From positions 41,617,473 to 41,681,472 of the forward strand of contig OX419758.1 of NCBI GenBank assembly GCA_948567375.1: a stretch of DNA of 64,000 nt. The letters run 5' to 3'. Below are positions 1 through 46,697 of the stretch, piece after piece. The position numbers and the translations under genes were made by a program. The notes beneath the pieces were generated by a model. The model was not told the origin of the DNA. It did not search any database and saw only the letters and a list, made by a program, of their open reading frames with translations. The DNA comes from Lunularia cruciata. Taxonomy: Eukaryota > Streptophyta > Marchantiopsida > Lunulariales > Lunulariaceae. Within the stretch, counting starts at the first letter, position 1. The number at the start of each line of letters is the position of its first letter.

Positions 1-1720
1 TGGTTTCTAAAATGGAACTGGTACTACTTGCACTCTACCATCATCCCATACATACAAAAGGTGTTTTCCCTCCAATCTGAACCGTTTGGCTCACTAAAGA
101 ACACAATGTCTCTCCTTGGCCCCAATTGTGCCATCCACAACACCAATGTAAAGATAATCCATCACTAAGACATCTTCATGAATGTCTCACTAAACTATAT
201 CACTATCTCCACTATCTAGATGTGTGACCTCAATAACTCCTCCTATATACGCTAAGAGAGATACCACCAAAGCCTTGGAAAATATACAAAGAAGTGTAGA
301 TGCATGCCAATCTGCCATCATCTCCTCATTATCTCGCCATGCCAACATGCTCTATTCTATTCTTGTTGGTTGGGACATGGGTTTCTACTCAACCCATATG
401 CATCACGGTGCACTACTCAAGGTCTATGAATAACCGTGAAATCATATTCCTATAAAATTAGAGCCCATCATGAAAGCTTCCTTAAAAGCTTGTCAGACTC
501 CATCAACCACTTCAATGGTTGATGATCAATGATGAGAGTAAAGGACTTACCAAATAGGTAACGTTGGAAATGTGCTATTGCCTATACTTTTGCCAAGCAC
601 TCTCACTCATATGAACTATACTTTGCCTCTGCTGAATTATTGGAGTGACTAGCATAGGCTACCACAAACTCCTTCCTCTCATCATCATGTTGGGTGAGCA
701 TTGCTCCAAGCTCCTACATACTCCAATTAGTATGAACCCAAAATGGTCATCCTCTGATTGATCTCCTCAAAATAGAAATAGATGTCAACCTCTCCTTGAG
801 CTCTACAAAAGCTCTCCCCTGCTCATCTCCCTAGCACCACTCTTGTTGTAAGCTTGGTCAGCATCATCAAAGCCTTGGCAATAGCACTAAATCCTCTAAC
901 ATAGTGGTGATAGAAGTTTGCCAATCCAAGGAATGCTCACACTTTGCTCACATCTGTAGGCTAAGGAATATGTGCAATAGCTTCCACCTCGGTTTGGTGA
1001 ACACCAAGTCCTCTAGATAATGTGATCTAAATAGTCAAGCATTGCTTGTGGAAGAATCTACACTTCCTAGGACGTAATTTGAGTCCATGAGATCTCAACA
1101 TCTCAAACTCTTCCAAAAATTATCTCTCATGCTCCTCCACAATAGTGCTATAGACCAAAATGTCATCAATATAACACCGAGCAAAATCTAATCTAGCTAG
1201 GATCCTATCCATGACCCTCTAGAACTTGGTACAAGCATTCTTTAACCCAATGGTAAGAACCTCCACTGATATTACACATCCTTACCATTAAGATCAATAG
1301 CCCAAAATGTTGTCTTGGACTTATCTTCCTCCCTAATCAGCAATGGATGATATCTTGCTCAAAGATCCAAATTACTAAAGACCTTTGCATGCCCAATTGT
1401 ATCAAAGATCTCCTCCGGTGTAAGCATGGCATACCAATTAGCCTTAGTCTATTGTTTGATCAAATGGTAATCTCTACACATCTGCCTTTTGTGTAATTGC
1501 CATGCCATAATCTTTCTTGGTTGGCATCAATGTAGCTAATGCATACTCTCCATGTGAAATCTCCACCAAACTAGCCTCAAAAAGGTCTCTACTATGGCTC
1601 TGAATCAATGCTTGCTCCATGTCACTATATCTATAGGGACCACACAAAAAATTTGTATCCCTAATAAGCTCAATCCAAATGCTAGGCCCTTCCAACACCC
1701 AAATCCTTCATACTGAAGGC
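1..1720 (-). mobile_element. gypsy pol remnant: reverse transcriptase, RNase H, start of integrase
   Basis: Minus-strand translation gives family-typical Ty3/gypsy blocks in order. A pre-RT block lies around 1.47-1.70 kb (motif SHGEYALATLMPTKKDYG). The catalytic YIDD box, in the context CYIDDILVYS, lies near 1.14-1.18 kb. The RT connection block follows at about 0.88-1.0 kb, then RNase H-like sequence to about 0.4 kb. The sequence nearest the left edge resembles the region leading into integrase, and the rest lies outside the window. Part of the copy-1 fossil; many interruptions. Confidence 0.85.
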
Positions 1721-2204
1721 AAAAAAACTTGTGTAGCTCCTCAAGAACCTCCAAACTCTCCGTTTATCCCCTCTGCTAAGCTTGGGTCCCAGATTTGGCT
1801 CCCAAGTATCTTTGTAATTGTCATAGGAGTAGAAGACGGACTAACTGGCTGCTACAATGGGCCCTTGGGAGCAGTAGTGTCATGCACCCAACCACTAGAG
1901 GTCCTAACCTCAGTGTGAAAAACTCCCTCCACTTTAGCTACAAGCTCCATACGTCCTCTAGCTGCATCTCAAGTAGACCAAGGGTGTAATCCAAGTAGAT
2001 CCCGCTCACCTAGATGAACTCCAAGTAGACCACTCTCCCTAGTAGCCACTAGTTGTATCCCAAGAATGCCTTTTCCACTAGGTCCATCACCCCCAACATG
2101 TGCCTGAATCATCTCAATAGGCATGGAGCTCACAAGCATTTGGATAGTGATGTCTATCAAGTGCATCCAACATTGCTATACCAAGACAAGGCTCACAATC
2201 TAGG

Positions 2205-3125
2205 TCAAATAGTTCAAGTCCATAGCTTGAACTAACACATTATGCCTAGATGCCTCTAACACTACTAGAATAGCAATAATACCAATGCAAAAACCCATTT
2301 TCTACTCTCTCTCATCGGCATTGAGCTCCACCAACCTTTGTAACTATGAGTTCCAAACAAGTCCAAGAGCTCCCTCTCAAAAACCATAGGAGCCTTGGAG
2401 AATCATAAGTGTTGGAAAAGTAGCTTGAGGCTATCCAACTAGGTTTACCATTGCCATAGGTGACCTATCAGCCACTACCACCATCTGAGACTAGCGTTCA
2501 ACATCCAAAATCTCATCAATAGTAAGGTGGTCCAACATTGAATCCCATCATAAGTGCAATCTAGAATCTCTCTATGTAAGAGGTTTGTCCACCAAAGACA
2601 AAGACAATGAGCCCATGATCACAATCTGGCTGCATCTAACAACATGGCAGGTCCCATCCACAAATGGAACTCATGTGTATTTGCCACCACCCGATGCGAG
2701 AATCACCCATCAAAGGGACATTCTTTAAAATGTAAGTTGGAGAAACGGAGAGATGTCATAGTATCCATTATATCTCCCATAATCAAAATCTTGAAGACCC
2801 AAACCTCGACTTGTGCGTGTATGTTCCTAACATGGTCATCTAGAAATCACCAATTGAATGGGACCATATCTCTGTAAATCTTGTGTTCCCAACAAGGAAA
2901 TATCTATTAGAAGGGTCTTTTGGTAACCCCTAACTGCTGACATTGGTAATAACTCATGATACCAATAGGCCAAGTGTGCCACATGATGTAGAGAGACTCA
3001 CCTAGTAGTCTCATCTCTCTTCACATACAAGTACCTTGTACCCGTATACCCGCTTGTAGTATCGTAGCTAGTCTAGTGCTAATCCCACCAAACAACTTTA
3101 ATAGGCATACTCCTTGTATTGGATA
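2205..3125 (-). mobile_element. cytosine-5 DNA methyltransferase module inside the gypsy element
   Basis: Remnant of a C5-methyltransferase domain within the copy-1 retroelement. Family-diagnostic motifs occur in the right order on the minus strand. Motif I (LKLFGGI, S-adenosylmethionine site) is at 3.06-3.11 kb. The Pro-Cys of motif IV, after the context YGPIQLVIS, is at 2.83-2.86 kb. An ENV-like motif VI (YILKNVPLMGDSR) is at 2.70-2.74 kb. A motif VIII-like block (AHCLCLWWTNL) is at 2.58-2.64 kb. Motif IX/X-like blocks (ELNADERE; QAMDLN) are at 2.30-2.34 and 2.21-2.24 kb. The domain lies between gag and reverse transcriptase. It is decayed; no activity is implied. Methyltransferase-bearing gypsy elements are known from a charophyte alga and dinoflagellates. 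Confidence 0.8.
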
Positions 3126-4200
3126 CTACCAAACAATGAGTATGGTATCCAAAGGTATCAAGGTAATAGACTTTGAAGGCTCATCCTTACACTAGTCTCT
3201 TGGTGGTACAAAGACTCCACTCCAAGCTTATTGCACCAACTGATATGCATGTTACTACAATGCCTCCTCTAAATTCCACAATGGAACATCCAAAGTGGAT
3301 AGAATAATCCCACTCGTAATCCAAAAAAAATTTGGAGTATGAGTCCTTATTATCCCAAGTGATCTCCTTTGGTACTGGAGTATCCTTTGCATGGGCATTC
3401 CCCTCCAATAAATCACCAAGCCAAGTAACAAAACCAATGAAAGCCATACTTGTTGACTATAGTGAGCCAAGACTGCCCTACTAAAGCGTACTAGTAGGCA
3501 ACGTACCCGTCCCTCACCTAACTGCAAACTTGGTCTAGAGGAGGTTGTCTCTTCCCAATAGTCAATACTAAAACCCATATGGTATAACACTACTCTCCCA
3601 ACTAACACATCATATAACTCAACTACGGTCACAATGGCCTGAGCTCTCGCCACAAAGCTATTAGTCTGATGATCAGGCTGAATTTGAACAACAAGCTCTC
3701 CACATGTGATGTACTATGTAGAACCACCCCTAGAGATGTCTGGATCTGAAATGGACACATTTTTACATCAGTCTTCCGTAACACCAGACCAAAAACTGTA
3801 ACCTTCCCATAAGGGGTTATGCACTAGAGTCTAGTAAGACCTTATGTGGTGTATAGACCTTCCTTGAAGGTCTTACCAAATTAAAAATCCCCCTTTGGTT
3901 ATCCAATAGGACAAATCCAAGTGTAAACCGCTTGCTCAAAGGCCGGTCTAGTTGGTAACTCCTCCAATCTAGCCATTATTGCTTGCTATAAACCACTAGT
4001 TGTTGAGTGATCCCATGCTCCCCAACCAAGTCAACTCCACTATCAACCACCTCTGCTCTAGTAATATGAACCACATCATCCCTACTCTCACAAAGCTTGG
4101 TAGCCAACCAAAACACTAGAGCTAGATCAACTCCCATTGTAAACATGTCACTAGTTGAGAGTAATGGAAAGCACATAATCAACTTACCCACTCCTCACAT
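3126..4200 (-). mobile_element. conserved linker of the gypsy element upstream of the methyltransferase
   Basis: Minus-strand blocks without an assigned domain include DVLVGRVVLYHMGFSIDYW (about 3.5-3.6 kb) and a block with LVIYWRGMPM/LLEGN-type sequence (about 3.3-3.45 kb). Closely similar blocks occur in the same position in copy 2 (37.4-37.9 kb), so the segment is part of the family and not random sequence. It may include the protease or an N-terminal extension of the methyltransferase; neither can be settled by eye. Confidence 0.6.
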
Positions 4201-4539
4201 GGTGCTAGACTCAATCTTTGTAATAGTAGGTGGTTGACTAGTAGGTAGTCCATCATGCATCCCATCACCACCTACCACACCTGCACTAGGATGTCTAAGA
4301 GCTATAGATGTTGTCTATAGTGCCTCAAAGTGTGTAAAAGACTAGGGAAGCCCGACTTGTCTACCGGCCTCTCCTCTCTATGGGTCCAACTCCATTGATA
4401 CTCCTCTAGGCTTTTGAGTACATACTCCACTCCTACTCATTGCAATAGATGCATCCACCTTGCTGCTCCACACATGAATTCTAAGACATCTCTACCACCC
4501 ACATATGAGGTGGAAGTGTTAGCACCCAAATCTGATCTC

Positions 4540-5900
4540 CTATGAGCTATGGCCATGCTAGCCAATCTTTGCTCCAATTGCTCAATCCGAGTAGCCATGG
4601 CTATTTCAGAAGTAAGTGCAGGGATTGCACTCCTACTAGGTGTGGATCCTCTACGACCACCTCTACCATCTTGTCATCCATGACTTGGAGCTCCTCTACC
4701 ACCTGCCATAGCACCTCTACCACTTTGTAACTTAATGTGTAGGTTAAAGCATTGGTCACTAGTGTGGCCAAATCTGTGGCAATGCTCACATTGTCTCTAT
4801 GTTGGCTATGATGCACCAAAGGCATCATGTCCGCTACCTTGAGTGCACTCTCTCTTGTGGTGAGGTCCACCACAAGTCCAACAAGCAACAACATCACTCA
4901 TTGGTTGCTATTGATCCAAAAATGAAGGTGAAGGTCTAGCTACACTAGGCCCTCTACTTGCTCTATAAGATCTAGGTTGTCTACCTTGTCCTCAAAAACC
5001 AATATGGCATGGTGCATTCTATTTCACTATGGAAGAAGTAACAATTTTGAATGAGGTCTCCCTACCAAATCCAAATGTTATCACTCTCTCTTCCATCATT
5101 GAGCTCAATACGCTCAGCCAAACCAAAGACCACTGCCAAAGTAGGTGAAGTAGCCTATAATAATATAGCATCATGTACTCTACATTGCAATTCCTTGCCC
5201 AATATCCCATACCAAAATTGGACTGCCTGGGCCTTAGTAACTCCTTGAGTAAAATTGATCAATTATCTCATGCAAGTGTATGCCTCACATATACTCTTTC
5301 CAACCTTCCATTGGAACTCCTACAAGCTCCGTAGCTTGTCAATCCGCACTCCTTGGTAGTTTTACCTCAAACACTAAAAGAACTCCACTATGGAGTTAAA
5401 CCCCAATACTATACCACCTCTTGTAGTAGTACCTCCACTCGTAGTAGCACCATCTCCAAGAGATCAACCAATGCTACTAGAGCTAGAACTCGTGGGTACT
5501 ATCGATCTACCCCTAGAAACCAAGCTTGAAGTGATAGAGATATAGTTTGGAGACCAATATTGTCTCCATATCTCAATCTACTCCAAGTGAGCTCTCATCA
5601 ACTCATGGTAGTCATCTATTGACAGACTCTCTAAGTGCTGAAATAACTCCTTCTATGCTATGAAGGGTGCAAACAAAGTTGGGTTCCACATTTGGTATAG
5701 ATCACACCAACTATCAAATTCCTAGATGAAGTCATCCAACTCAATGGTACCCATCGTACCAGAGTAATGCCTAGGACCTTTGGAGGCCCAATAAATCTCA
5801 TCCATGTCCCACAACAACAATGTGGACACACCAAGTACACTCTCAATTGAATCAACTCTTGTATCAAACTCCAACTTAGAGTCAATCTCCTTCCTCACTA
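4540..5900 (-). mobile_element. gypsy gag remnant with twin zinc knuckles
   Basis: The minus strand shows a perfect CX2CX4HX4C zinc knuckle (CEHCHRFGHTSDQC, about 4.76-4.80 kb). Just before it in element order (about 4.84-4.89 kb) is a second knuckle, CWTCGGPHHKREC. A Gly/Arg-rich stretch follows (about 4.68-4.75 kb). The 5.0-5.4 kb part reads like a gag capsid region (blocks around PILVWDIGQG and LSSMMEERV). Fossil, many interruptions. The matching knuckle region is present in copy 2 at 36.3-36.45 kb. Confidence 0.8.
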
Positions 5901-5950
5901 GGACCTAAGATATTAGCTAATACCGAGTGCCACTCCAGGTAAACCCATTG

Positions 5951-7560
5951 TGTATTGTAGCGCTATCTCCTCTAGAATCCCCAAAGAACTCTATTGTGAC
6001 AAAGTAACCAAAAATTACAACTCGTAATAGTAATTGATGCAAGAATCCCACCAACGAAACATCACCCACTAATGTAGCTCTAACTACAACAACTACACTA
6101 AGGGAAAAGGCAACCTGTAACTTACCATCACAACACTCACTCTTATGGTTTGCAAGTCATCACTTCCTACTTCACTAGAGAGAAACACAAGTAGTCTGAT
6201 TAGTCAACACTCCAACCTCACTATTGAAAGCACACCAGAGCACCAACGCTCTAAAGTCAAGGCACCTCACACAAACATGGTGCACAAACAGGAAGCAAAG
6301 AATGAAGGGAGTCCAATCACAAGAAATCTAAACAAAAACCCTTCATCTCATAAATCAACATCGAACTGACTCTACCATAGTTTGGCATTTGACATAATAC
6401 AAGTTATCTACTTCCTAAGTTACCAAGATCACCAAGAATGGGATCAAATTATCTCTCCTAGCCAAAGCTACAAATATATAGATAATAGTGGAATTGTTAC
6501 TAGGACAACAAGTGAGGGTGGACCAGTTGGCTAGGCATCAATCTAGGAACTAAAGATCTAGGGTCAAACCTTGTTGCACATAATCTAGCAAGGTGTGCAG
6601 ATTTTGCCAAACAATGACCAAAATCTATTCTAAACTAGCTAGCCTCACGCAAGCAAGTTAGCTTGTTGGCCCTTTTAGGCCTTTGTAGCCTCTCATAGCC
6701 CACAACCTTATGCCTCAAAGCCTATAAATGCCAAAATTCAGCCAAATGAGGCATTTCTTTTGGCCACTTCGAATCCTCTCCAAATCTAGTAAACCTCCTC
6801 CAAATCTGGCCAAGTTCCTCCAACTCAAGCCAAAATCTGACATGAATTCTAGCCAAAATTTGACATAAAATTTGATGTAAATCTTTAAAGTTGACTGATT
6901 GCCAAATCCTCCACTAACTCTCTACTCGAGCAAAATTGAAATGATGGGGGTCTCCAAATCACAAATTCACGAGGATGGGTTCCCAAGTCCACTTTCAATT
7001 TCACTTTGTAAGCTCAACTCGTACCAAATTGGTCTTATTTTCACCTCCTAAGCTCAAAATGAACACCAATGCTCACAATTGATTATCTTTTCAACAAAAA
7101 TTGGCCAGTGCTTCCACACACTGTCTGCCTCATTACCAAATCTACATTAATTCAAAGACCTTTTGCACACGATAACTCTTAAGGAAAATCTAGACCACAA
7201 TCGAGCTACCAATAATCAACAAGGCTTGGAAATACTATTAACACCTTTAGTCTTTGCACCCAATTTCTCTCTGCATTCACTTCTTTGATGTAATCAATTT
7301 GCTCACACAATTCAAATCACACTCAATCCAATTAGTACTTGATCTATCATTCAATAATCTGCCAACAATTGAGCATTGATTATTGTCAAGGTATACCCAC
7401 TATTGCTAAGAAAATCCTGATGATATTTGTATATCTCTATCCACTATAGTCAAGAATTCAAAAACTCAACATCAAAGAAATGAGTTCCCTGGAATTACAC
7501 TTTGAAAATATACTCTTTGGTTTCCAACCCTAACAATACTACTAATAATATATTATGCAA
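5951..7560. other. AT-rich non-coding stretch, probably retroelement leader/LTR-derived
   Basis: No supportable gene. The stretch has the same composition as the adjoining gypsy remnant and lies where its 5' leader and LTR would be expected. I could not find a second copy of it in the window, a tRNA primer-binding site, or TG...CA ends. A TATA-like string (CCTATAAATG) occurs near 6.72 kb on the plus strand. It may be a different LTR family. Confidence 0.35.
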
Positions 7561-8155
7561 ACGGTGCTAAATGACAATGTGCCATACCATGTAGTCATTA
7601 CATTGAACACAAAATTGGATGGTCCACAAGTAATCTATGAATAACTACCAAAATACTCATGACTACAAACTCTACTACTACACAGATCGAGCAATTTAGA
7701 TTTGATATTACAAATAATATCACATATGTGATCATGATGGTTGGAAATAGAATAGGAATAGTAAGTAACACAACAAAACAGGAATTGCAAGAGCCATAAC
7801 GGAACAAGTACGTCACTAATCACAGAATTTGATGGGCGAAGAGACAAAGGCGACCACATAGAACACATGAAGCATGGGAAGACTTGTCAAGTAAAGCCGC
7901 ACAAGGGAGAGACCACCGAGCTTAAATGAAGCTAGGCCGGAAGAAGGACTGTCTATTATTGTCCTATTGTCTAAGAGCAGTACCCAGGACTAGGAAAGAA
8001 TTGCCAATTTGTATTTGGCGGGAGTGCTCTTCAGGAAAAAAAACATTCATGTAATGTGCTCAGGACATCTTAATTTGCAATATTATGAGCAGAGTGGAAA
8101 GACTTCTCCTAAAGCCGGGGTTTAACAAGTGGCGAAAACTGGTTTGTGTGTCCCA
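7561..8155. other. intergenic, nothing recognised
   Basis: Composition rises to that of the gene-bearing parts of the window. Short open frames only, none with a recognisable product. Confidence 0.4.
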
Positions 8156-8321
8156 GAAGTGTCACGGCAAAGTCCACTCCAACTGGTACTGCCCAAGATG
8201 AGAGGAGTTACTATGGTGTTACTACCTATCATGTTGGTCTTTCCAATTGGGTAGAGCTTATTCGATCTAGGAAACCAGAGTTGATAGCAGCCGTTGATCG
8301 TGCAATCAAAGCAGTCGCATA
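8156..8321 (+). CDS. possible last exon of an unrecognised gene
   Basis: A plus-strand open frame follows a good-looking splice acceptor (TTTGTGTGTCCCAG, ending 8155) and ends at TAG (8319-8321). It includes the blocks DERSYYGVTTYHVGLSNW and VELIRSRKPELIAAVDRAIK, whose residue mix looks protein-like. I do not recognise the product and found no convincing upstream exons in 7.6-8.1 kb. It could equally be a gene relic or a chance frame. Confidence 0.22.
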
Positions 8322-10241
8322 GTACAACGGAACACTATGTGTTGGAATGCTCTTCCTCCTTGGTGTAATCATGGCAACTGTTTACGTGTACCATGTTGGT
8401 TGGCACGCGAGTTTCCCTTGAAGAAAATGCTCCTTTCGAATTTGTTCGTATGACTACTGCGGACTTGGATTGGAGCATATAGATTTCCTGAACATAGGTG
8501 TTCAAACTCATCTTGTTGATCAAATTTCCTCAAACTTTGTTGAGATGAGCGTGAGCCAGCATACTTGGGGACTCAGGTTTTCTGGACACTTGCGTCCAGA
8601 ATTTGCATACTGATGAGAGCCAACCTGTGCCGCAATTAAGAGGGCCGCAAGTATATACTTGTACAGTGTTCTGTATTGGAGCTGAGTTTTGGGACAAGAA
8701 GATATATTTCTTCTTGAATACTACATCTTTGGTTTGCCTTCCATTCGCTGCCATTCAAACTTTTGATGCAGGATCTTGTAGAGGTTTTGTAGGCTTGTCT
8801 AGAGTGCGTCCACCGGGGTACCTATGCTAGCTAAATAAAGGCTCACGAAGAAGTTTTCTGTTGCTCCGGCTAACAACCATCGGGCTGTGATAATCAATCA
8901 TAGACTCTAGTTCGTCACTTGTTCTCATTCAAGAGCAAACACTTGCAGGCTTACGCTAGCACATCCGTACTTTTAAGTGCACCAATTAAGTTTGGCTCCT
9001 CCCCTCGTCTTGATCCTATCAACTCGACTTCTCTTGGCCAGGTTTTATCAATCGCAAAGGTACGACCTCTTTTCGTTTTATAAACAAAGAATTCTCCACC
9101 TTTGGTTCAATTAGTGTGACCTTCCGTGTACAGTGGTGAAGGTATTAGTTGACCTGAAAGCTTGAGGTGATAACCCGATGTTCCCGATTCTCAACTGTGG
9201 AGCATTGCCTTTCAATTGACTCAGCTAGGAATCCCTAACGATCCTTAACTTAAGCCCTACGTTCGTCTTTCATTCTGCTTCTTTTGTCACATACATTGGC
9301 TGATCTGTAAGTAACGAGAGCTGGAGGCCTGTTGTAGTACTTTCATTCGCAGTCAGATAAACAAATTGGAAACTTTATGAGGTCAGATGGGTCTTTTCAG
9401 GGATAATAGGAAGGATGCTGTCTACCGGCACTGAAGATCTACCACATACAGAATCTGGTTGAGCAAGAAGTGAAGAATCAAGTCTGGAGGCCCGGGTAGG
9501 AACCAATCACTTATGCACGAACCAGTCACATCTATCAAGTCGCTGGTCACTGGAAGAAAGGCACCTACATTAGAATTTGATGTTTATGTCAGGCATCGAT
9601 GGTTATTGCTTGTAAAAGTAACTCTGTACGAAATGGATCCAAATCATTGTATCTGAGAAATCGGAGTGGAAAGATATTGGATGTTACGACTTGTGTATGA
9701 TGACAGAACAAGATGCATGTATAAGGCATACAGCGTGAATGAAGTAGCCATGAAACAGTAGTCCAGGGACCAACGACACAATATAGCGGAGTCTGCACTA
9801 TGAGATTACTCTCTGAAAGCTTTGTATCAAGAAAATCGATATGAGATACAAAGTTCATAGCTAAATAGCTACGAACAGGTTTACACCAGAAGGTGAGAGC
9901 CCCAAATCTATGACCATTGGGGCATCGGTGTTCAGGAATGAACAGGCACAATCCAAATCCAATGGCTACTAATGACCTAACACACTAGATCACATGAATC
10001 AACACACAAATCAATAGATTATCAATTGATTCTAGATTCTAACATGCACCAAGATCAGTTGTGCTCCCCTTGCTAGTTCCCACCAGATGCTTGAAGAGCT
10101 ACCGTCTGTCCCTTGAGAACAGACCAAATAATCGAATACAGAGTCAGATCATATCTAGGGGAACTTCTACATCTGATGGAAAAACTACCTCCCAACTTCC
10201 AGAAAGCCATTTGTCCTGTCTCTACAATATCATGAAGGGTG
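8322..10241. other. intergenic, nothing recognised
   Basis: About 1.9 kb with only short open frames on both strands and no recognisable domain, RNA gene or repeat. It lies beyond the 3' end of the minus-strand PPR gene. Confidence 0.4.
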
Positions 10242-10899: not shown

Positions 10900-13800
10900 C
10901 TAGCTCATTTTGGTGAAACTTGATGTCTTCTGTCGATCATATTGTACAGACAGTCTTGCTGCCCATAAACTCTGTTCAGAGTCTGAATTCTCAGAATCCC
11001 CTTGTACTAATCCTGCCAGAGCGGCGGTATAAATAGCTAAAGATTCCGTGGAGGTATGTAATACGGCATCCTTGAGGAGTTCCCTGGTGTTCATACCCAG
11101 ATTGAGATTCTTTCGAGCTAAATCTCCTAGCACGTCCTGAACTTGCTTCCTTAGCACAGCGCCGGCTCCATCCTGAGGTTTGGTTCTGTCCAGCATTCGG
11201 AAACTAAGAACTCGAAGTGCTTCCACAGCATCCTCATCTTGACCAGCTTGCATATAGGTAGAAACCACTGGTAAGAATGTATTGTGATCGGGCAAAACGT
11301 TACTGCGCCGCATCTCCTCCACCACATGCTCCATCACATCGACCCGCTTCTGCTTAAGACAGTAGAAGTATAGTGAGACAAAATGAAGCGTTTCTTCATC
11401 CGTAACTGACTTGTCAACAAGTTAAACTGTGAGCTTAAGACCTTAGGTTAAGAGCTTGAGAGCTTAAGACTACTCGATTCATCCGGTCATCTGATCTCTT
11501 CTCTATGATATCCTGGGTACCAGTGTTCCGAGGTGAACTTTAACATTTGATATTATTGAGTGTATGAATATGGCCCCCTCCGTAAGAACACGGTTCAATA
11601 CCCCACTTAAGACTGGACATTACATGGCATGGTGAATGAGGTATAAGAACTAAATCCCTCGTAACCATCATTTACACCTAGTGGTGAGCAAACTCTCCTG
11701 TTAATTTGTACCTGCAAGTGAGGACTAGAATAAAGCAAGTATCTTCCATGAGTAGTCGAAAGTGTACCAGATTACATCACCATTAATGCCATAGCGCAGC
11801 TAAATGTAAAGTAAAAAGTCGTCCTAAGCTCCTTAAACCCCCAGGAAGCTGTGTATGAATACTGGAATTTACAACTCGATATATGTGGAGTGAGAGTATA
11901 AGCCGTTTCAATAACGAGAAATCTACACCCGACGCGAACTAAGTACATGCAAATCTATGCAACTAGGAATTACGTCGGAGCACATGCGACTAAGCAATGT
12001 GGAATGGAATAAATAATGGATTGATACGCTCATATATTCCATGTAAGATGAATATTTGATTAACAAGACCACTATAGTAAGCAATTTGATACAGAGCAAT
12101 CTTGAGGTCTCCATCAAGTTATCACACCACGTAGACACTGGCTTCAGAGCGTAAGAGATTCCTACCACCATGAGCAGCACGTGATCCCTTCTGGAACTTA
12201 CTTGATAAGATGCAGATGTCAAGATAGTATTGAAGGTAGCCGTGTCTGGTTGTACACCTGACCCCGTCATTTCCTTTAGTAGGTGAGGCACTATATCCAT
12301 CTCCCCACTATGGCATATTACCTGTGTACAACCAACATTGAAATAATCTTCACAAGTGAAATCGGGAATGGAGGGGTCAACTATAGGATGGTAATAAAAG
12401 ATAGTCTTATACGGAAAGGAGGTCCTCCTCACATCAAAGAAGCTTCATCCTGGAAGGATCCTCAACACTTGTGAATATGTAACACCGAACACTCAAGTAC
12501 TGATTTAAAAAACTAAATTCATCATACCTATGGACATAGCCAAAGAGTGTTCTAGAGAGTCCCACACCTTTAAGAGGGTGTTGAAAGTCACAACGGTAGG
12601 AGCTAGACCTTCCTGTCTCATGGTATCCACTAGCTCGAAAGCAGTTGCAAGTTTCTTATCTTGTGTACAACCATTGATGAGTATGTTGTACGTGTAAACA
12701 TCAGGTTTAAGCCCGGCCGAGCGCATTCCGTCAAAAACTTTCCACCCTGTCTCCACCTGAATAACTCCAAAACCACATATGAAAATCTACTTCACCCACT
12801 GTAACTAACTTCAGACGCTGTGTTGTTGGGGCTACAAACTTGATTCAATGAAAGATATGCATATCTTTACCTGACCGGAGTTGACACAGCTGAGTATTAC
12901 AGTATTGTACGTAGTGACATCCAGAAGTTCCTTGTCATGAGTGTTGGTATCTTTGAGCCGTTGAAGCATAAGTTCTGTTAAACCTTGTGCCCCTAACACA
13001 TGCATCTGCACCAAGTCCGTACTGGTAAGACACGTATAACTCTATCAGGAAAACCCAAGAAGATGGAAGTTCCAGAATTTATTTTAGCCCATTCTGTGTC
13101 TGGAAACCCTTCCATCATTGACTTTCGAAACAATCTATCACTTGTACTCAGAAATGCGATTTACGGAACCCCGATGTAAACAACCCAGTTCCATACCCAC
13201 GGACTGACTCAGACATTTGACAGTAACATAGTAAAAATCTTCATATTTGTCACTTAGATTAGATTGTGCTCTACCCTCGTCTCTGTCTTGGCTCTGAAAC
13301 CAAAGTCAAAGATGCACGAACAAGAATGTACCAAGTTTTCTGCAGCCCTGACCCTCTTACGCAGTTTGGTCTCACACAACAAACCTCCGTTGAGAAACTA
13401 CGTCCCTACGACCGAAGAAATGTAAAGAGGGGAGACTTCTTCCAACAATTGAGTATGACGACTTATTAGCAACCCACTGAGATACCAAATAAGATTTCAC
13501 GTTCAAAATTTCACAACCTATATAAACTTCAACCCGTTGCAGGTCCACTCTTAGATGTCGCGGTTACTGAAGTGAGAATCTCAAGAGGAAAGGTTAAACC
13601 ATAACGTTGAAATTCCAGACTTGGTGACATACCAGAGAGGTAAATGATTCCTGCGTGTGCTGAACCCCGGACTGAACCATGTCCACTTCTATCGCAGTCA
13701 CTCTCTTTGCTATCTGTTGTTGTGACCAAGGACTGCTACCTTCTGGTCCCGACTTGGTATTGCCCATAGCCGTAAATAGAGCAATGTACGTACAGATATC

Positions 13801-16800
13801 TGCAGTCACCCCGAACTCTTTCATCCGGCCGAATACTTGCAGTGATCGTTCCGGTTCTTCCTGCGTCAACGTCATGCCCTTGTGATCAGTGCACGTCGGT
13901 TGCAAAGAACGATATTTATGTATTAACCACTCTAATTCAAGTAACTGTCCCATGAAAGCTCTAAGCCTACTTGTGGTGAATACTTTGAGGTGAGGACATC
14001 TATCATAGTTTGTCTGATACATCAGAGATAAGAGGGAGTGATAGACCTTCCACTTCAAAGAGTAGGAAGTATGGTTCTCATCAGGTTATGGGCCCACAAT
14101 CACCATTGGGATTGATAGGAGAACTCAGAGAGCTAGAGAAACTAGGAAACACTAATTACAAAGCCTGGGCTTTGGATTTAAAGGGTATCCTAGACAGTTA
14201 TGTTTGTTTAGACTTGGCATTAGAAGCCCATGATATAGATGAGCTTGAGCCCAACAAGGAGGAGAGAATCAAGCATTCTACTACTAGGAGGTTTCTGCTA
14301 AGGGCTATGCAAGAGCCAGTCAGAGACCTAGTAGACACTTATGCTTGGAGTTGGGAGATCTGGCTAAAACTCAAGAATTTTTACTCTGTTGAGAGGCTGG
14401 AAAGTTCCAGTAGGTTCTGGGATGGGATGTGGAATACTAAACTTGCAGATGGTGAAGACTTTACTTTGCACTTGTCAAAGTTACAGAAGGCCTTCAAGAG
14501 TGTCAAGGAGGATGGGTGTCCCCTTACAGAGAAATATGAGATCAACCATCTCTTGAAGACTCTCCCTCCAAGCTACCAGCCTATCAAAGTAGCTCTAAAA
14601 GTTCTACCTGTTGAAGTTGTCACATGGGATTATGTGATAAACAGATTGCTGGTGTTTAGCAGAGACAGAGAGGACCTAGAGATGAAGTTTAATGATTAGG
14701 GAGATTCTGCTCTGTTCAGTGCTTCTTCTCAGTCAAGGAGAGTGCCAGATAGAAGAGTGAGCAAACCAGAGCAATCCAGAGTGAGTAAATCTGGTAAAGG
14801 GGTTAGTAGTGTTGCTAACATGATCTGTTATTTCTGTCATGAGAAAGGTCATGTTGCACCTATATGTCCCAAGAGAGGAGAAAGGAGAGACCGAGAGCTG
14901 AAGAAGGTAGGCAAGGGACCTCAACCAGTAAGAGGTCGAAAATTTGCGAGTTCAGCTTACAACACAGAGGAGTGCAATGAGATAAAAAGCGATGAGGAGG
15001 GGTACTCAGCAGACAAGCTAGATTGTGGAATGTTGGCAGAATCGCAGTTGTCCACAAACGGTTTTGGATGGTTCTTGGATTCTGGAGCCACCTCTCATAT
15101 CTGTTACCAGAAGGAGCTGTTCTCAACTCTTCAACCTCTGAAGATTCCCAAGAGTGTTTGTTGTGGACCTGGGATTCTGAATCCAGTGTTAGGAACTGGC
15201 AAAGTTCTATTGCCTCATGGGAAGATCTAACACAAGTTCTTGTAAGAGCTATTTGGAAGATGTGCTCTATGTTCGAGATTACACCAAGCACTTGATATCA
15301 GTACATCACCTCATGGAGCATGGAGTGGATGTTCTGTTTGAGAGCAACAGAAATCAATGCACTTTGAAGAAAGGAGAGCTGGTCCTTGGGTATGGCACTG
15401 CCAAAGGGAAGCTGTTCAAGTTGATGGAAGCTGATTGTTCTGATTCTGCATTGGTGGCAGGAAAACAGAAATGATATCCATCTGTGGCATTTGAGGTTAG
15501 GGCACTTGTCAGTGCAAAACCTATATGCTTTAGAGAAGGTAGTGGATGGGTTGAAACTGGATCCAAAGGAAAACTCGAGTTCTGCATTGGGTGTGCAGAA
15601 GGTAAGGCACACAAGGCTCCTATCCCCAAGAAATCTTCATCTAGAGCTTCTGGTCTTCTAGATGTCATACATTCTGATGTATGGGGATACATGGCTGAGA
15701 AGTCATTGAGTGGAGCAGCCTACTATATTTCTTTTGTGGATGATTACAGTAGAAAGAGCTTTATCTATCTCATGAAAAGCAAGGACCAAGTGCTGCGAAA
15801 ATTCCAGAAGTTTGTAGCCATGGCTGAGTTGCAGACTGGGAGGAAAGTAAAGCGATTGAGAACAGATGGAGGCAGAGAGTACAGGAATGAGGAATTCCTC
15901 TCTTTTCTGTCAGAGAAAGGAATTCTCCTTGACTGTAAGAGACAGTCCTGCACAGAATGGAGTTGCAGAAAGGTTGAATAGGACACTGGTGGACAAAGCA
16001 TTGGCCATGCTCCAACATGCCAAGTTGGAGAGAAAGTTTTGGGGTGCTGCAATTAGCACTGCAAATTACCTTAGAAATATCAGTGGTACCACAGCATTGC
16101 AAGGAAGAACTCCTGAACAATATTGGAGTGGTAAGAAACCTAATCATTCAGCTTTGAAAGTTTTTGGATGTCCTGCCTATGTTCATATTCCCAAGGAGCA
16201 AAGGAGGAAGTTCACAAAGAAGGCTGAGAGAATGCTCTTTGTAGGATATGAAGAGGGACTGAAAGGATATCTTCTGTACAATCCTAAGTCTGGACAGATC
16301 ATCAGAAGTAGAGATGTACTCTTTGATGAATTGAGGACTTGAATGATGAGTTGCAGAAGCAAGCTGATCAGTTTGATCATCCTGATCAACCTATCTTCCC
16401 AAGCTGCAGAGTCAGTTTTTCAGATCAATCATCAGAAGAGCAATCTCTACCTGAAGCTGATGGTTCACCAAAGGAGAGTCTGAAGGTGTACCAAAGAAGG
16501 CCTATACAGACGGTGGTTTCTGATCCTGATACTACAGAAGATGACTACCAGAAGCAGACTGCAGATGCAGAATCTCTGAGTGAGATTCCAGAGATGTCAA
16601 GAGATGACATGAAACTTCTAGGCACAGAGCCAAGAAGATCACAGAGAGATAGAAAACCTATTGACAGACTTGGCTTTCTATCAGAAGAGATGTTAGATGA
16701 ATCTTACATCTGTCATGAAGATTGTGATCCAGAAACTCTACAGGAAGCTACACTCAGACCAGATTCGAGTCAGTGGGAGTTGGCTATAGCAGAAGAGAAG

Positions 16801-19800
16801 AAGTCTCTTCAGACTAATGGTACATGGGTACTAGCTGACTTACCACCAGGTAGGAAAGCAATTGGCTGTAAATGGGTTTTCAGGGTCAAACGTGGAGCTG
16901 AGAATGAGGTCCTGAAGTACAAGGCAAGACTTGTTGCAAAGGGCTTCAATCAGAAAGCATCAATAGATTATTCAGAAACTTTTGCACCGGTTGCCAGGTA
17001 TGGATCTATTCGCATGCTTCTAGCTCTTGCAGCAGAGAGAGATTGGGAAGTGGAGCAGTTAGATGTGAAAACAGCCTCAATGGAGATTTGAGAGAGACTA
17101 TCCACATGGATGTTCCAGATGGATATACTGAAGGCAAAGGAAAAGTATGCTTGCTTAAGAAGGCTTTATATGGTCTTAAGCAAGCTCCTAGAGCCTGGTA
17201 TGAGAAACTAGACTCATACTTTAGAGAGCAGGATTTCAAATGAGCAGATTCAGACATGAGTGTGTATACTAGAGATGATGTATGCATAGCTGTATATGTA
17301 GATGATCTATTACTATTGGGGAACAGGAATCTATCAAAGGAGTGATAGATTTCTTGTGCTCTGTTTTTGAGATGACTATCCTTGGTCCTGTAAAACTCGT
17401 TTTGGGAATCAAAGTGAGCAGAGACAGAGAAGCAGGATGGATCCGGATCAGTCAACCACAGTATGTGAGATCCATACTAGCTAAGTATCAGATGACAGAG
17501 GCGAATCCTGTCTCTACACCTCTTGATCTGGGGTGGAAGCACAGCAGAATCATAGATGGGGAGGTGAATCTCTGTGACAAAGTGTTGTATCAGAGTGCTC
17601 TTGGTTCTCTAATGTTTATCATGGTCTGTACAAGACCAGATATATGCTATGCAGTGGGAGCACTAGCTAGATATACTAGCAACCCTGCACAAGTACATTG
17701 GAAAGGTATAAAGAGAGTATTCAGGTACTTAAAGGGTACTCAAGATGCATTCTTGGGGTACAGAAAGCAAGGGAACATACTTGCTTCTAAACTTGAAGCA
17801 TATACAGATGCTAGTTGGGGAGATGACACAGATAACAGCAGATCAACTAGTGGACTAATCATGCTAAGTGGTGGAGCAATCAGCTGGCGTAGTAAACAGC
17901 AAACATCTGTTGCACTGTCTACTACTGAGGCAGAATTTATGGCTGCCTCAAATGCTACTTAAGAAGTCATCTGGAACACGAGACTTCTTAAGGAGCTGGG
18001 TTTTGAGCAGGAAAGTCCTACTACATTGTAGTGTGACAATACAGGAAGTATAGCACTCAGCAAAAATCCTGCACATCACCCAAGGACTAAGCACATTGAG
18101 ATTAGAAGAAGATTTGTAGAGGAGAAAGAAAAGGAGAATGTTGTGAAGTCAGTTTACTGTCCTACACAGGAGACGACAGCAGATGTGTTTACAAAAGCAT
18201 TACCTAAAGATAAACACATAAAATGTGTAGTAGAAATGGGAATAGTCTTAAACTCTCATTAAGCGGGAGTGTTAGTTTAGTTAATCTCTAGTTTAGAGAC
18301 TTCTCTTGTTTTTAAAGTTTTGTTAGAATCCTGCTAAATATTTTCTACTTAGGGTAAAGAGGGGCCCAGCCCTAATAAGGGTTAAGCAAAGCAACCCCCT
18401 AGGGTTTGCTTAAGTGTTTTTAAGAGTGTTTTCTGCTCTTCTTTCAGTTAGTTCTTCAACAAGGGTGATTCCCAACACCTCTTCCTTGCATTTCGTGAAA
18501 TCCTGAGCTGCCTACCATCATCTCAGTATTGGAGGCTAGTAGTGCTGCGTGAGAGAACCTATTTGATGCTTGTGAGCTGTGATACAAAGAGAGAGGTCTA
18601 GTATTGCAGAAGTGATGTCTGATACATCAGAGATAAGAGGGAGTGATAGACCTTCCACTTCAAAGAGTAGGAAGCATGGTTCTCATCATAGTTAGATGTC
18701 CTAGAGAGGCCATAGAGCATGACAAACGCATATGTATCTGGTACTACAAGACACAAAAAGATGGACTGTTGAATGTCTCCGTCTTAATTGCCATACGTCA
18801 TGCTTCAAAGATGTTACACCCACTTGACCGCCAACTTCTAATCTAAACAACGACCTTACACAAGCACATCACTGAGCGTAAAAGAGGTGTAAAGATACCG
18901 CTGCTACACAAGCATTAAGAAGTATGTTGTAGGCGTGGCACGTAGGCCTCTGGCTTTGGCTGCCATTCTCCATGTAATCTAATACTTGGTCGGCTTTGTT
19001 GAGCTTCTCCCTTCGACAGTATCCTTCCAACAGTGCAGTAAGGGAGTGAACGTCTGGCGTAATTCCGATGGACTCCATCCTCTTGAGCTACATTGCATCA
19101 TCAGAAGTCACAATCAGATATCTTGGACTTGAGTAGCCTAAAAACGAGACCTAAGTATTCTATTTAACTTCGCTTTAGAGTTCCCTGCTACAGGTTACAC
19201 AAGAACACCAACACGGCTGAGGGATAACTGCGGGGTTTTCACAATCACAATTTCATGTTCCCGCAGCTTGGGTTTCTCCTTGATAAATTTCGCTTCTCAA
19301 TTTCATACACAGCACCTTATTTGTGCCATCTATTCTTGCTTTAATGTATAGATAAGAGCATGCGGTAGCGTTTTGGTTAGTCGCCTCCGCGTCCTGGTTG
19401 GACGCTGCTGGGAGACTCCACAAGCACTCAAAACGTCAAATTGAGGAAGAATGGAAGTGGATCCGACTCTTACAATTCGTAGAGCATGCTGGATATCTCT
19501 TCCTTCCAATACAGCTCTTAGAAGTGCATTATAAGTATAGATGTCTAATTTCAACCCCAATTGACGCATCTGGCACAACATCAACACTCTTTTGTTAGAA
19601 AGCAATTTTGATCAGCCCAACAAGGACCAGAACTAATTAGCAAGTTGCATGGACGTTTCCAAGCGCACAGGAGACATATGCAGACTTTCATAAGTCAGGA
19701 ACTTGAAGATTTGTTGCCAACTATGGAATCCCGCACGTCTAACTTATTATGATCCGGAAATGGGAAAAAGTTAGGCAGAGCACTACCTCTGAGAACAAGC

Positions 19801-31600: not shown

Positions 31601-33184
31601 AAAGTGCTTCTGTTAGTCGTCTTCTAATAATAAAGAGCCTTGCAATCTTGGATATATTTAGTTGAAAATTGAATATTGTATTGATTATTAAAGTTATGAA
31701 GTTTGCATGTTTTCCAATAATATTTATTATTTTTGAGAGATGTTGAGTATTCATCATTTAAAAAAATTGACTTTATTAGATTTCTTATGAGAATATTGAA
31801 TATTGTTGTCAGGCTGATTTTTCTTGTATAGCTATGTCTCAAATTTATCAAAGTAATTATCAAAGAACTATCTTCCTGTTTTCTTGCCCAAGGCTTTGAA
31901 AAGAATATTAAGTCTTGTTTCTCACGTAGAGTAGTACACATGTACATTATTTTAATTTTTAAGCAATATATATTCAAATTAAGAAAAATTGGGTTTTTTT
32001 ATTATGTTTTTTTATGAAATTGTAGTATAATAAGAAATAAAAACAAGGCTCTTCAAGGTATATCAGTACAAATTTTTGTTGCATTACTAGTATCATATTC
32101 AGGTGTAGTATTTGATAAGAGAGTGGTAGTTCTTCTCTTACTTATTCAACTAATAGTCTGTCTTGTATTTGCAACAAAATAAGATTATAAACACTAATTA
32201 ATTACTCAGTAAATATAGATAGTTTAATAGTTTATCATTATTCAAAAATAAAAAATTATGAGATTCTGCTTAATAAATTTAAGTAGCATTTCTTCTCTTA
32301 TTCTACTTTGTTGTATATTTGGAGTTTTCTCCATATATCTTTATATACTATTTATAAATTTCCAAAGATGAAATCATAGTTTCATATGAAATTAAGATAT
32401 GTCAATAACCACAATAAATATAACTACTAATAAATGCCTCTAAATATATATTATAGTTGATACTTCTTATTTGTAAGGAATGGTACTTATCCTTTCCTTC
32501 TCTTAATGATATTATTTCTTTGAAACTTGACTTATAAATCTTATATGTGAAATGGATTAAATTGTACATACATTGTCTACTACTCAATCGTATTAGATAT
32601 TTAATGTTGATAGTCTAGTGTTGAAAATTGCTCTTGAAAAATAATTATTTTCTTAAAGTCTAATTTTGCAAACTTGGACTTCGTCCTTTTAAAACATAAA
32701 TGATATATTTTACTTCCAATCAGTCGACAATAAGCTTCACAATTACTATTATATCCATCCAGGTGTGACAAGCGTGATTCTGTTGTTATATATCATCATA
32801 AGCTATCTGATCATACCTTCGCGTTTTCAGTGTTGTCCGCCGGTTAGCTTCAGCTACCAAATAATAATCCATTTACTTTGTCGTGGACATCGCACTACTT
32901 TGTAAGTTATCATCATATACTCCACATTTATGCGGTTGGACCGGAAGTAGAAAGGAACTACTGTGGGTAGAGGGACATTTCGGGCGAATGTTTCGGGCTT
33001 GAATCTACCGAATTGTTATCATAAGTTTCTTAAATTTGAGGGTGTTGATATATGTTTGATGGGATGAGTTCTGTTCACACATATAACATATGATATATGC
33101 ATAAGACATTTTTCGAATAAAAAGCTATAATCAAAAGGTATCCCGGTCTTTTTTTCCATATTTTTGTTTGAAAAAAGTAATTGT
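28621..33184. other. AT-rich gene-poor stretch
   Basis: About 4.5 kb of low-GC sequence with no frame of convincing length or composition, no tRNA or rRNA, and no recognisable transposon protein. Probably heterochromatic or eroded transposon DNA. Confidence 0.5.
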
Positions 33185-33250
33185 TACAAGTCTTGTACTT
33201 ATTATATAGCATATAATATTATATGCTATATAATAAGTACAAGACTTGTA
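33185..33250. repeat. perfect 66-bp palindrome
   Basis: The two 33-bp halves (33185-33217 and 33218-33250) are exact reverse complements with no spacer. The outer end reads TACAAGTCTTGTACTTATTA and the centre is ATAATATTAT. Symmetry stops abruptly at both outer bases. Such a perfect, spacer-free palindrome can form a cruciform. It suggests a recent inverted duplication or a miniature element, because drift would otherwise have introduced mismatches. Confidence 0.92.

Positions 33251-34575: not shown

Positions 34576-34577
<2 letters not shown>
33251..34577. other. AT-rich gene-poor stretch
   Basis: No recognisable feature; composition like the flanking AT-rich region. Confidence 0.45.

Positions 34578-34623
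<46 letters not shown>
34578..34623 (+). repeat. (TTA)n microsatellite
   Basis: About fifteen uninterrupted TTA triplets. The apparent poly-tyrosine reading frame across it is only a translation of this simple repeat. Confidence 0.95.
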
Positions 34624-35270
34624 GCATATATACATCACCATATAACATACATTGTTGTTACTTTAGAAATACAAATCACACATAAGTCATACATAAAATC
34701 TAAAATGCCACAACAATCAATTCAATTCACACACTTAAATGTAATTAGAACTCAATCCATCAACTCAATATTGGTAACAATGTGCATTGATTACAATCAA
34801 GCCACATCCACTTTAGCTAAGAGACTTCAGATGATGCTTGATGGCTTTTGTCCACCATAACCAAGAACTCAAATGCTGACCATCAAATTAGTGAGCTCTC
34901 CAAAGTTGCACTTCAAAAGTATTTGGCTTGACATAGAACTCCAATCCTAACAATGTAATTGATGACCCACCTGACTATGCAAATGATGGTAGTCCAACTA
35001 GTGTGATCAATAGCACTAATATGAAATCTGGCCGCCACTAAGTAGTTTATGAGCAACTATTAGTATAATTATGATTGCAAAGACTAACACTCTAATGTCC
35101 AAGCAAACTAACGTTGGCATTGAAAATACCATGATACTTATAAAACACACACACACACATACATACCACATGAGATCCTCTCAAATTGACAAAAGTAGTA
35201 TGGAAATGCATATTGCCAACATATCAAGTTCAATGTTGGAGATCAAGTCTAGCTATCAACCACCAACCTC
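34624..35270. other. AT-rich spacer with short CA repeat
   Basis: No gene seen. A short (CA)n run occurs near 35.15 kb. Confidence 0.45.
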
Positions 35271-35309
35271 GTGTTAGTTGGTCCTTATAAGCTCAAACCT
35301 TGTTTTGTT

Positions 35310-36303: not shown

Positions 36304-38247
36304 TAAAGACAATGTGATCATTCTCACAAATTTGGTCACACTAGTAACCAATGCTTTGACCTCCACCTGAAGTTATGGAGTAGTAGGGTTGCTATGGCAA
36401 GTGGTAGAGGAGCTCTAATTCATGGAAGATGAGGTGGTGGTAGAGGACTCACACTTGGTAAGGAGCATAGTATCTATCCTTGCTTTTGATATAGCCATAG
36501 CTACTTGGTCGAGCAATCGGAGTAAAGACTGGCTAGCATGGCTATAGCTCAATGAAGATCAAATTTGGGTGCTTAGTCTTCTACCTTTTATGCTGGTGGT
36601 AGAGACATCTTGGACTTTATGTATGGAGTAGCACAAGTATATGCATCTACCATAGTGATTAGGAGTGAAATATGTGCTCCAAAGCCTAGAGGAGCACTAG
36701 TAGAGTTGGACATACAAAGAGGAGAGTTTGGTAGACAAGTCAAACTTCTCAAGTCTTTCACACTCTTTGAGGCACTATAGAGGACATCCATGGCTCCCAA
36801 ACATCCTAGTGCATGTTGGATAGGTGGTGATGGAATGCATGATGGACTAAATTCTTGTCAACCACTTGCTACTACACAAATTGAGTCTAGCATGATGTTT
36901 AAGGTGGCTAAGTTAATTATGCCCTTCCTTTTATTCTCAGCCAATGAAATTTTAATATTGGGAGTTGACCCAAATCCAATGTTTTGGTTGGTTGTCATGC
37001 TTTGTGAGAGTAGAGATAATGCGGTTCTTGCTTCTTAAGCAAAGGTGGTTGATAATAGAGCTAGTCGACCAATGGTTTATGGTAGGCAACAATAGCTAGG
37101 TTGGAGGAGTTACCAACTAGACCTGCACTTGAGCAAGTTGAGATCACACCTAGAGTTGTCTTATTGGATAACCAAAGGAAGATTTTTTTGTTTGGTGTGA
37201 CCTTCATGGAAGGTCTATATACCACAAAAAGGTCTTATTAAACTTTTGGTGCACAACTCCTTATGTTAGGGAAGGATGTACTTGTCGATCTTGAGCTCCA
37301 AAAGACCGATGTGGAGAGGTGTCCATTTTAGATCCAAACATCTCTAGAGGATGGTTCTACATAGTACATCACATGTGGAGAGCTTATTGTATATACTCAA
37401 TCCAATCATCCGATTGATAGTTCTATGGTGAGAGCTCAAACATTGCAACAATAGTAAAGTCATATGATGTGCTCGATGGTGGAGTATTGTTATACACCAT
37501 AGGTTTTAACACTGACTATTGAGAGGAGATAGCCTCTTATACACCAAGTTTCAATTAAGTGAGGGATGGTATATCACCTACCAATACATTTTAGTAGTGG
37601 TAGTCTTGGCTCACTATAGTCAACAAACATGGCATCAATTTTGACTTTTAGTGGTTTTATTACTTGGTCTGGTGCCTTATTGGAAGAGAACACGCGTGTA
37701 GAGTATACTCCAATACCAGAAGAGATCATTGGATTTGGAGTATTAGTGGGATCATTCCATCCACCTTGGATGGTCCATTGTGTATTTTTGAGGTGGCATT
37801 GTAGTAGCATGCGGATCAATTGGTGCAATAAGCTTGGATTGGAATCTTTTTACCACCAAAGAGACTAGTGTGAAAATGAGGTTCCAAAGTCTATTATCTT
37901 ATCACCTTTGGATACCACACTCATTGCTTGGCAGTATCCAATAGAGGGAGTATGTCTATTGGAGTTGTTTGGCGATATTATCATTGGACTAGTTGCAGTA
38001 CTATAGCTAAGTATACAAGTACATAGGTACTTGTATGTGGAGAGATATCAGACTACAAGGGAAGTCTCTCTACATCATGTTGCACACTTGACCTATCGGT
38101 ATCTTGAGTTATTATTGATGTAAATAGTCAAAGTTTTTAAAAAAACCCTACAAGTAGACATTTCCTTGTTGGGAGTAGAGGATTTGGAGAGACATGGTTC
38201 TATTTATTTGGTGATTTTTGGGTGGCTATGTCAAGTAGATACTTATT
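36304..38247 (+). mobile_element. gypsy gag knuckle to methyltransferase segment, copy 2
   Basis: Plus-strand counterpart of 4.8-2.8 kb in copy 1. It has the zinc-knuckle region (FGHTSNQCF-type, about 36.3-36.4 kb) and the linker (SGALLEENTRVEYTPIPEE, 37.66-37.73 kb). Methyltransferase motif I (LELFGDI) is near 37.95 kb and the motif IV block (DISLLGVEDLERHGSIYLVI then GWLCQ) near 38.16-38.23 kb. The segment stops at the inverted LTR. Fossil with many interruptions, but independent confirmation that the methyltransferase belongs to the family. Confidence 0.75.
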
Positions 38248-40100: not shown

Positions 40101-40228
40101 TCATTTTACTACAAATCTTTATCTTACTCAAGTTTTTTAGAAAATTCAAATATTAATTTTTTATTTATTTTATTTTATTTTATTTTTTCCTAAAACCTTG
40201 AGTAAGATAAATATTACTAGTAAAATGA
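40101..40228. repeat. 40-bp inverted repeat around a TTTTA-rich spacer
   Basis: Left arm 40101-40140 (TCATTTTACT...CTTACTCAAG) and right arm 40190-40228 are imperfect reverse complements. About 49 bp of T-rich (TTTTA)n-like sequence lie between them. Looks like a miniature inverted-repeat element or foldback. Confidence 0.7.
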
Positions 40229-46609: not shown

Positions 46610-46697
46610 CTTGGAGTATTCTTTTTGCATAAAGTATATTTATAGTTGTTGTACTTGGAGTATTCTTCTGGCACAAAGTATATCTATAGTTGTTGTT
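46610..46697 (+). repeat. 44-bp tandem duplication
   Basis: Two copies (46610-46653 and 46654-46697) begin CTTGGAGTATTCTT and end ATAGTTGTTGT, with a few differences. Confidence 0.85.

Follow-up and report, generated by a model that had tools for sequence, protein, structure and literature searches.

DNA methylation is a host weapon against transposons, and an element that thrives while carrying a conserved DNMT3-type methyltransferase of its own poses the question why DNA methylation should be carried out by a transposon at all. This question is raised by a decayed gypsy-type retrotransposon at the left edge of the 64,000-base stretch of DNA analysed here (the window), and land plants offer a place to test it, as the model liverwort Marchantia has annotated relatives. 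Our preferred reading, which is considered probable, is that the locus is an old copy of a DNMT3-carrying gypsy family whose enzyme would be made at the Gag level, ahead of a read-through stop codon, packaged, and used to methylate the element's own complementary DNA (cDNA).

A decayed element and its methyltransferase

The element, copy 1, holds a partial repeat A, gag, protease, methyltransferase, a UAG stop, reverse transcriptase (RT) and RNase H in that order, and exits the window at base 1. A locus to the left of the window (L054) is its integrase-PHD part, which ends in repeat B and matches element 7843-9358 at 85%. The features of copy 1 were as follows.

1..7615, minus strand, decayed gypsy-type element, copy 1 (aligned over 7788 columns with a natural younger copy at 80.7% nucleotide identity)
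7285..7615, minus strand, partial 5' terminal repeat A1 (aligns to element 110-449; boundaries approximate)
4749..4883, minus strand, Gag zinc knuckles, CWTC...C and CEHC-X4-H-X4-C (read by eye, coordinates hand-counted)
3728..3933, minus strand, aspartic protease remnant with LLDS motif (tblastn with P0006, 3933-3808 and 3808-3728)
2173..3239, minus strand, cytosine-5 methyltransferase domain, DNMT3-like, broken (tblastn with P0001, E 5e-65, frames -3 and -2)
1852..1854, minus strand, UAG stop, followed by CAGCCA (UAG-CARYYA), separating the methyltransferase open reading frame (ORF) from the RT ORF
1030..1248, minus strand, reverse transcriptase, part (Pfam RVT_1 1.1e-11 on an X-marked piece)
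471..827, minus strand, RNase H (Pfam RT_RNaseH 7.6e-25, RT_RNaseH_2 1e-23; start hand-counted)

The tblastn query for the methyltransferase, P0001, was an intact relative from ENA (Pfam DNA_methylase 6.2e-11), and the target was the whole, unedited window. At the E value obtained, chance resemblance of this stretch to a methyltransferase was rejected. A preliminary description of the locus had placed such a domain at 2205-3125, between gag and RT of a gypsy remnant; this was confirmed, with the limits slightly widened to 3239-2173. Several observations on the window copy itself weigh against the assignment. The domain carries stops and frameshifts, at E<=1 PF00145 matched neither any of its three single-frame pieces nor the X-joined reading, and comparison of the latter with the PDB was weak (best E 0.25), with DNMT3 in 16 of the 17 rows. 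As the window frames are without a Pfam match, the significance of the call rests on intact relatives. The profile search proposed in the preliminary description was thus negative for the window's own frames and positive for natural younger copies in the same genome, where PF00145 matched the natural ORF1 of two copies (3.2e-7). When proteins were searched with the X-joined reading, seven reached E<=10, five of them Marchantia gene models.

Elsewhere in copy 1, repeat A2 (element 9600-9820) also aligned, at window 7513-7291. The Marchantia gag-DNMT protein P0004 aligned to window 4991-4551 (tblastn), and no Pfam match was found for the gag of this copy. Pfam protease models gave weak matches in relatives only (P0138, P0141) and not in the window copy.

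The family in the source genome and its expression layout

A search of the source assembly (565.8 Mb; eight contigs of >60 Mb sum to ~558 Mb) with P0001 yielded 13,362 loose first-look candidates. All of the 111 that were scored showed 72-74% identity over nearly the full length of P0001 (E down to 3.8e-178), and many of them lay in long open frames. Ten copies with flanks were drawn from these, comprising the six best-scoring and four chosen for open frames of 1428-1431 aa. The genome was sampled in 20 stretches of 2 kb at even spacing; 6,921 of 40,000 bases (17%) belonged to the family, which was present in five stretches, one of them by 53 bases, and the reversed-sequence control gave 0 of 40,000. 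The resulting figure of one-sixth of the genome is rough, because the sample is small; coverage of the window was 9,851 of 64,000 bases (15%). The genome survey that the preliminary description had called for therefore showed that the remnant does not stand alone and belongs to a large family with recent activity.

The family is an abundant gypsy-type retrotransposon, with an ORF1 encoding Gag, protease and a DNMT3-like enzyme and an in-frame ORF2 encoding RT, RNase H, a DDE integrase and a PHD finger. ORF1 measured 1428-1431 aa in the five copies that were open from its start, and ORF2, from one natural copy, held RT, RNase H, H2C2, DDE integrase and PHD regions (Pfam RVT_1, RT_RNaseH, Integrase_H2C2 and rve, the last at 7.6e-13). 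The enzyme lay between protease and RT, and an integrase-PHD match downstream of RT-RNase H, in 10/10 copies. No tyrosine recombinase was found by Pfam in most of the natural ORF1 and in ORF2, where rve was present.

The repeats followed the layout A-coding-B-A-B in eight of the ten copies, with a 5' A of ~449 bp, a 3' B-A-B and a B of ~107-118 bp; the other two (C_L009, C_L011) were without a complete A pair within 20 kb and were excluded from the end and age counts. In all eight, the termini were TGTC..GACA and the internal B-A junction read GACA-GC-TGTC, and a 4-bp target duplication was seen in seven. Two matching terminal long terminal repeats (LTRs) were not found in this layout, A standing at the 5' end versus B-A-B at the 3' end, and the element is therefore gypsy-type by its proteins with DIRS-like repeats. 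The low divergence between A1 and A2 in the eight young copies (Kimura two-parameter distance, K2P, 0.009-0.035) indicated that transposition was recent. One copy, C_L017 (L017/L018), was nested inside another gypsy element with 690-bp LTRs that were 96% identical.

The enzyme of the younger copies carried motifs I, IV (Cys), VI (ENV), VIII and X in unrearranged order, and retained the catalytic Cys, the ENV Glu, R-x-R and motif X, in 10/10 copies. P0001 was 74.8% identical to the genomic copy enzyme, its structure model gave DNMT3A/3B as best matches, with a DNMT3-like fold, and the conserved motifs of retroelement enzymes aligned with DNMT3A. These observations support the assignment of the gene as a putative DNMT3-type methyltransferase of a gypsy-type element. 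In 45 pairs of the ten copies, the ratio of nonsynonymous to synonymous change (dN/dS) took the values 0.25 (enzyme), 0.29 (segment ending at the UAG), 0.31 (RT start) and 0.50 (protease-linker part), all of a kind that neutral change after insertion raises. Purifying selection on the enzyme implies that it does something for the element. It is improbable, given the retained residues, this dN/dS and a catalytic Cys in 24 of the 25 retroelement rows of the enzyme tree described below, that the domain is a non-catalytic passenger or a structural part of Gag, as might be argued from a Pfam match that spans only its central part and from the one protein with Tyr in place of the catalytic Cys (P0163). 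Motif IV read Glu-Cys instead of Pro-Cys in four of the 25 rows (P0160, P0161, P0165, P0166).

Some points temper the picture of an intact, selected and abundant family. The enzyme frame was open in nine of the ten copies, with a stop inside it in the tenth, but this proportion is biased upward because the copies were top-scoring hits and picks for open frames; private stops occurred elsewhere in most of the ten, and C_L017 and C_L023 were frameshifted in ORF2. Constraint on the enzyme was about equal to that on RT, its dN/dS being no lower in kind, and only 111 of the 13,362 candidates had been scored.

The manner in which the enzyme is expressed is suggested by the stop codon that separates it from RT. 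The sequence TAG CAG CCA stood at the identical place in 10/10 younger copies, 1410 bases past the start of the methyltransferase match, with the RT match beginning in the same frame as the methyltransferase ORF, and copy 1 in the window retains UAG-CAGCCA. In a further retroelement contig, L056, with an enzyme that shares 49.7% identity with P0001, TAG CAA TCA leads directly into an open frame of 1047 aa that matches RT, RNase H and integrase-PHD. UAG-CARYYA is the tobamovirus-type read-through context, and as both sites fit it they are assigned to the read-through type; with all bases equally frequent, chance alone would give CARYYA once in 512. Production of RT, RNase H, integrase and PHD finger by read-through of this site is thereby strongly suggested. 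With the UAG lying between the methyltransferase ORF and the RT ORF, the enzyme of the source-genome family is most likely made at the Gag level, together with Gag and in excess over RT. Among relatives, ORF1-type proteins ending ~75-150 residues past motif X were seen in Marchantia (P0123, P0133), Calypogeia (P0122) and ENA/JGI/Logan sources, some of which may be cut off by the edge of a contig. Four gene models (P0127, P0128, P0132 and P0159) continue into RT, perhaps via predicted splicing, and P0163 and Closterium P0166 hold enzyme and RT within one predicted protein. The read-through layout suggests that the enzyme may be a component of the particle, which is a specific and checkable claim.

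Relatives and descent of the enzyme

Relatives were collected by a profile search, in which 7,998 candidates were scored and the best 120 of 519 proteins listed, and by a second search with 58 listed. The named hosts among the matches listed were Marchantia polymorpha, Calypogeia fissa, Sphagnum troendelagicum, S. tenellum, S. fallax and Closterium sp. NIES-54; Klebsormidium nitens was not named among these matches. With annotated relatives in the liverworts Marchantia and Calypogeia and in Sphagnum, as well as in the charophyte Closterium, the range of such elements reaches land plants, as had been anticipated. The host itself had been described as moss-like; its gene content fits a non-flowering streptophyte more broadly, the host genome containing genes read as an unrearranged DNMT3 (L049) and two DRMs (L052, L053). 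DNMT3 has been lost in flowering plants according to the portion of PMC9994747 consulted, with which its retention here fits.

An enzyme tree was built from 29 rows, namely 24 proteins chosen from 170 ids, one genomic copy, and four host rows (human DNMT3A, and the DNMT3 and two partial DRMs of the source genome). The 25 retroelement rows were split from the four host rows with support of 100/100, so that the window-type enzyme groups with retroelement enzymes, and a bryophyte-type clade that includes the source genome received 97/99. Owing to long branches (P0166, P0170, P0163, P0167), the deep order is unsure, and four host rows are few; Closterium P0166 fell on the retroelement side on such a branch. 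Capture of a host methyltransferase gene by chance in one element copy was rejected on this tree and on the shared protease-RT position, which contradicts it in 10/10 copies; gene models from Marchantia, Calypogeia and Sphagnum also fuse the enzyme to gag or RT, and practically no credence is left to this explanation.

The RT tree comprised 11 rows, being nine of the 18 proteins with an RT-RNase H match (the others were too short or split) and two genomic rows. Its well-supported nodes joined the source genome with three Marchantia models (99/99) and P0160 with P0161 and P0165 (100/99). The trio recurs in the enzyme tree (90/80), and the source genome-Marchantia node fits the bryophyte-type clade there, though via another Marchantia row. 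The position of the enzyme varied. It lay upstream of RT in the source genome, Marchantia, Sphagnum and Closterium, N-terminal to RT in P0170, and after RNase H in P0160, P0161, P0165 and P0167, preceding the integrase in P0160 and P0165 (P0161 and P0167 end first). These five proteins are ENA/JGI retroelement proteins, with a PHD finger by Pfam in P0160, P0165 and P0170 (in P0170 under the cut-off). P0165 and P0170 had no Pfam call for PF00145 at E<=0.01 and were picked up through sequence similarity (E 3.1e-51 and 4.3e-17).

From the differing positions it follows that the enzyme moved or was captured more than once. Separate acquisition by bryophyte and charophyte elements, with convergence on the KnitGypsy-Dnmt3 element of K. 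nitens, would draw on this variation and on the long branches, and is nevertheless judged unlikely: the 25 retroelement rows lie on one side of a fully supported branch, albeit against four host rows only, two element groups recur in the RT tree, and the A-coding-B-A-B repeats occur in K. nitens too, according to the part of PMC5890265 consulted. It may tentatively be proposed, though with some doubt, that PHD-tipped gypsy elements form a lineage spanning the streptophytes, in which one DNMT3-like enzyme has persisted since before land plants, made at the Gag level via UAG-CARYYA, packaged and used to methylate the element's own cDNA, and that this lineage has come to fill about a sixth of the source genome.

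Matches under bacterial or viral labels were also considered. L056 is a retroelement contig of 9.2 kb whose ends are identical over 48 bp, from a metagenome-assembled genome labelled Synechococcales cyanobacterium (CADCWO010000201.1); a scan of genome contigs with profile A3 found this locus only, and one with P0065 found no match. Because of their gag-protease-DNMT and RT-RNase H-integrase-PHD matches, the bacterial labels on P0065 and L056 probably reflect eukaryotic DNA in bacterial bins. A viral origin was rejected, as P0001 found nothing in viral contigs and profile A3 gave one locus, L055, on a phage-like contig, with an ORF that appeared Dcm-like by eye.

Elements of this kind are already known. 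In the portions of de Mendoza et al. 2018 (PMC5890265) consulted, KnitGypsy-Dnmt3 of the charophyte K. nitens is described as a Gypsy element with a Dnmt3 and DIRS-like repeats, and it resembles the present family in the type and unrearranged order of its enzyme, its repeat layout and its purifying selection (Ka/Ks <0.2 there versus 0.25 here). It differs, when compared by description, in having the enzyme in the Pol polyprotein ORF rather than in ORF1 with Gag and protease ahead of UAG-CARYYA, and in its charophyte as opposed to land-plant-type host; a PHD finger closes ORF2 in the source-genome family, whereas no word starting with 'PHD' occurs in the text of that paper. SymbioDIRS-Dnmt3 of Symbiodinium, as described in the same portions, shares the Dnmt3-type enzyme and the A-coding-B-A-B repeats, but is a DIRS element with a tyrosine recombinase, in contrast to the DDE integrase and 4-bp target duplications found here. 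The host DNMT3 shares the methyltransferase motifs and their unrearranged order, but is intron-split and lies outside the retroelement clade, as do the two DRMs, which share the motifs with a GNSF-type motif X placed before motif I.

What is added is the extension to land plants and a likely expression mechanism; the placement of the enzyme on the Gag side, the read-through context and the PHD finger of ORF2 are features without report in those parts of the literature on such elements that were consulted. Among the papers listed, subscription papers and preprints lying outside the search, none was seen to describe a bryophyte element carrying a DNMT; supplements may hold bryophyte cases. No bryophyte appeared in titles among the matches listed of literature citing de Mendoza et al. 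2018, and the family went unmentioned in the portions consulted of PMC5784723, PMC10952607, PMC9994747, PMC6453930, PMC9033089, PMC8616336, PMC12344493 and PMC6338049.

Methylation footprint and other features of the window

Two further pieces of the family were found in the window.

36307..38242, plus strand, element copy 2, shortened, from the gag knuckle to methyltransferase motif IV (76% nucleotide identity to element 3016-4991)
34623..34922, minus strand, fragment of the family's end repeats, A2-B2 (aligns to element 9602-9921 at 72.7% identity, E 1e-41)

The methyltransferase of copy 2 was matched by P0001 at 37890-38282 (tblastn, E 7e-37). Relative to a younger copy, the share of sites at which C had become T in copy 1 was 38.7% for CG, 37.4% for CHG and 11.5% for CHH, whereas the reverse change, T to C, stood at 4.5%; the losses in copy 2 were similar (40.9%, 44.4% and 15.6%). 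Between A1 and A2 of the eight young copies there were 56 transitions and 2 transversions, with C/T differences at 5.1% of CG, 2.0% of CHG and 0.4% of CHH sites. From this decay it follows that the copies were once methylated at CG and CHG.

The identity of the writer is a separate matter, and here the evidence weighs in part against the element's enzyme. CHG methylation is a host-type (CMT) signature, and the LTR pair of the enzyme-less gypsy element around C_L017 showed the same direction of change at few sites (CG 2/22, CHG 2/24, CHH 10/489; 14 transitions, 10 transversions). The footprint is therefore host-type and does not point to the element's enzyme as writer. It is thus possible, if somewhat doubtful, that the host enzymes MET1, CMT, DNMT3 and DRM write all of the methylation, and that the enzyme of the element has another target, host DNA or RNA for example, or shields the cDNA only briefly. 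CHG decay as strong as that at CG would fit this, as would the enzyme-less gypsy and the DNMT3- and DRM-type genes of the host genome (the search covered these types, not MET1 or CMT). Purifying selection on the enzyme inside the element, however, argues against it, and DNMT3 enzymes are generally known to have DNA as their substrate.

Under the preferred reading, that of self-methylation, the enzyme would be packaged with Gag and would methylate the cDNA of the element ahead of integration or during it; new copies would thus arrive already methylated. Host maintenance enzymes of the CG and CHG types might then keep copies methylated, and methylated copies would decay through C-to-T change. 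The possible benefit to the element would be escape from the sensing of unmethylated DNA, or a tempering of damage to the host.

Copy 2 is adjoined by other gypsy remains at 35200-35720 (plus strand), read by eye as an integrase C-terminus and a chromodomain-like stretch. It lies within an 18-kb block (30000-48000) of ~26-32% G+C save for copy 2 itself (36-38 kb), with flanks of 40-46%; the block held no Rfam match and no tRNA, one ORF of at least 120 aa and few tandem repeats. A copia element occupied 13989-17962 on the plus strand (Retrotran_gag_2 4.4e-14, RVT_2 2.7e-29); no LTR pair was found for it, in that direct repeats >90 bp were absent from 9-64 kb. It was flanked by weak PPR matches on the minus strand at 10903-11421 (7.9e-5, under the Pfam cut-off) and 19742-20452 (2.8e-6). 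Further along the plus strand were a histone H3 gene at 48305-48817 (Pfam Histone 1.5e-48) and a GrpE exon at 51100-51687 (1.6e-6).
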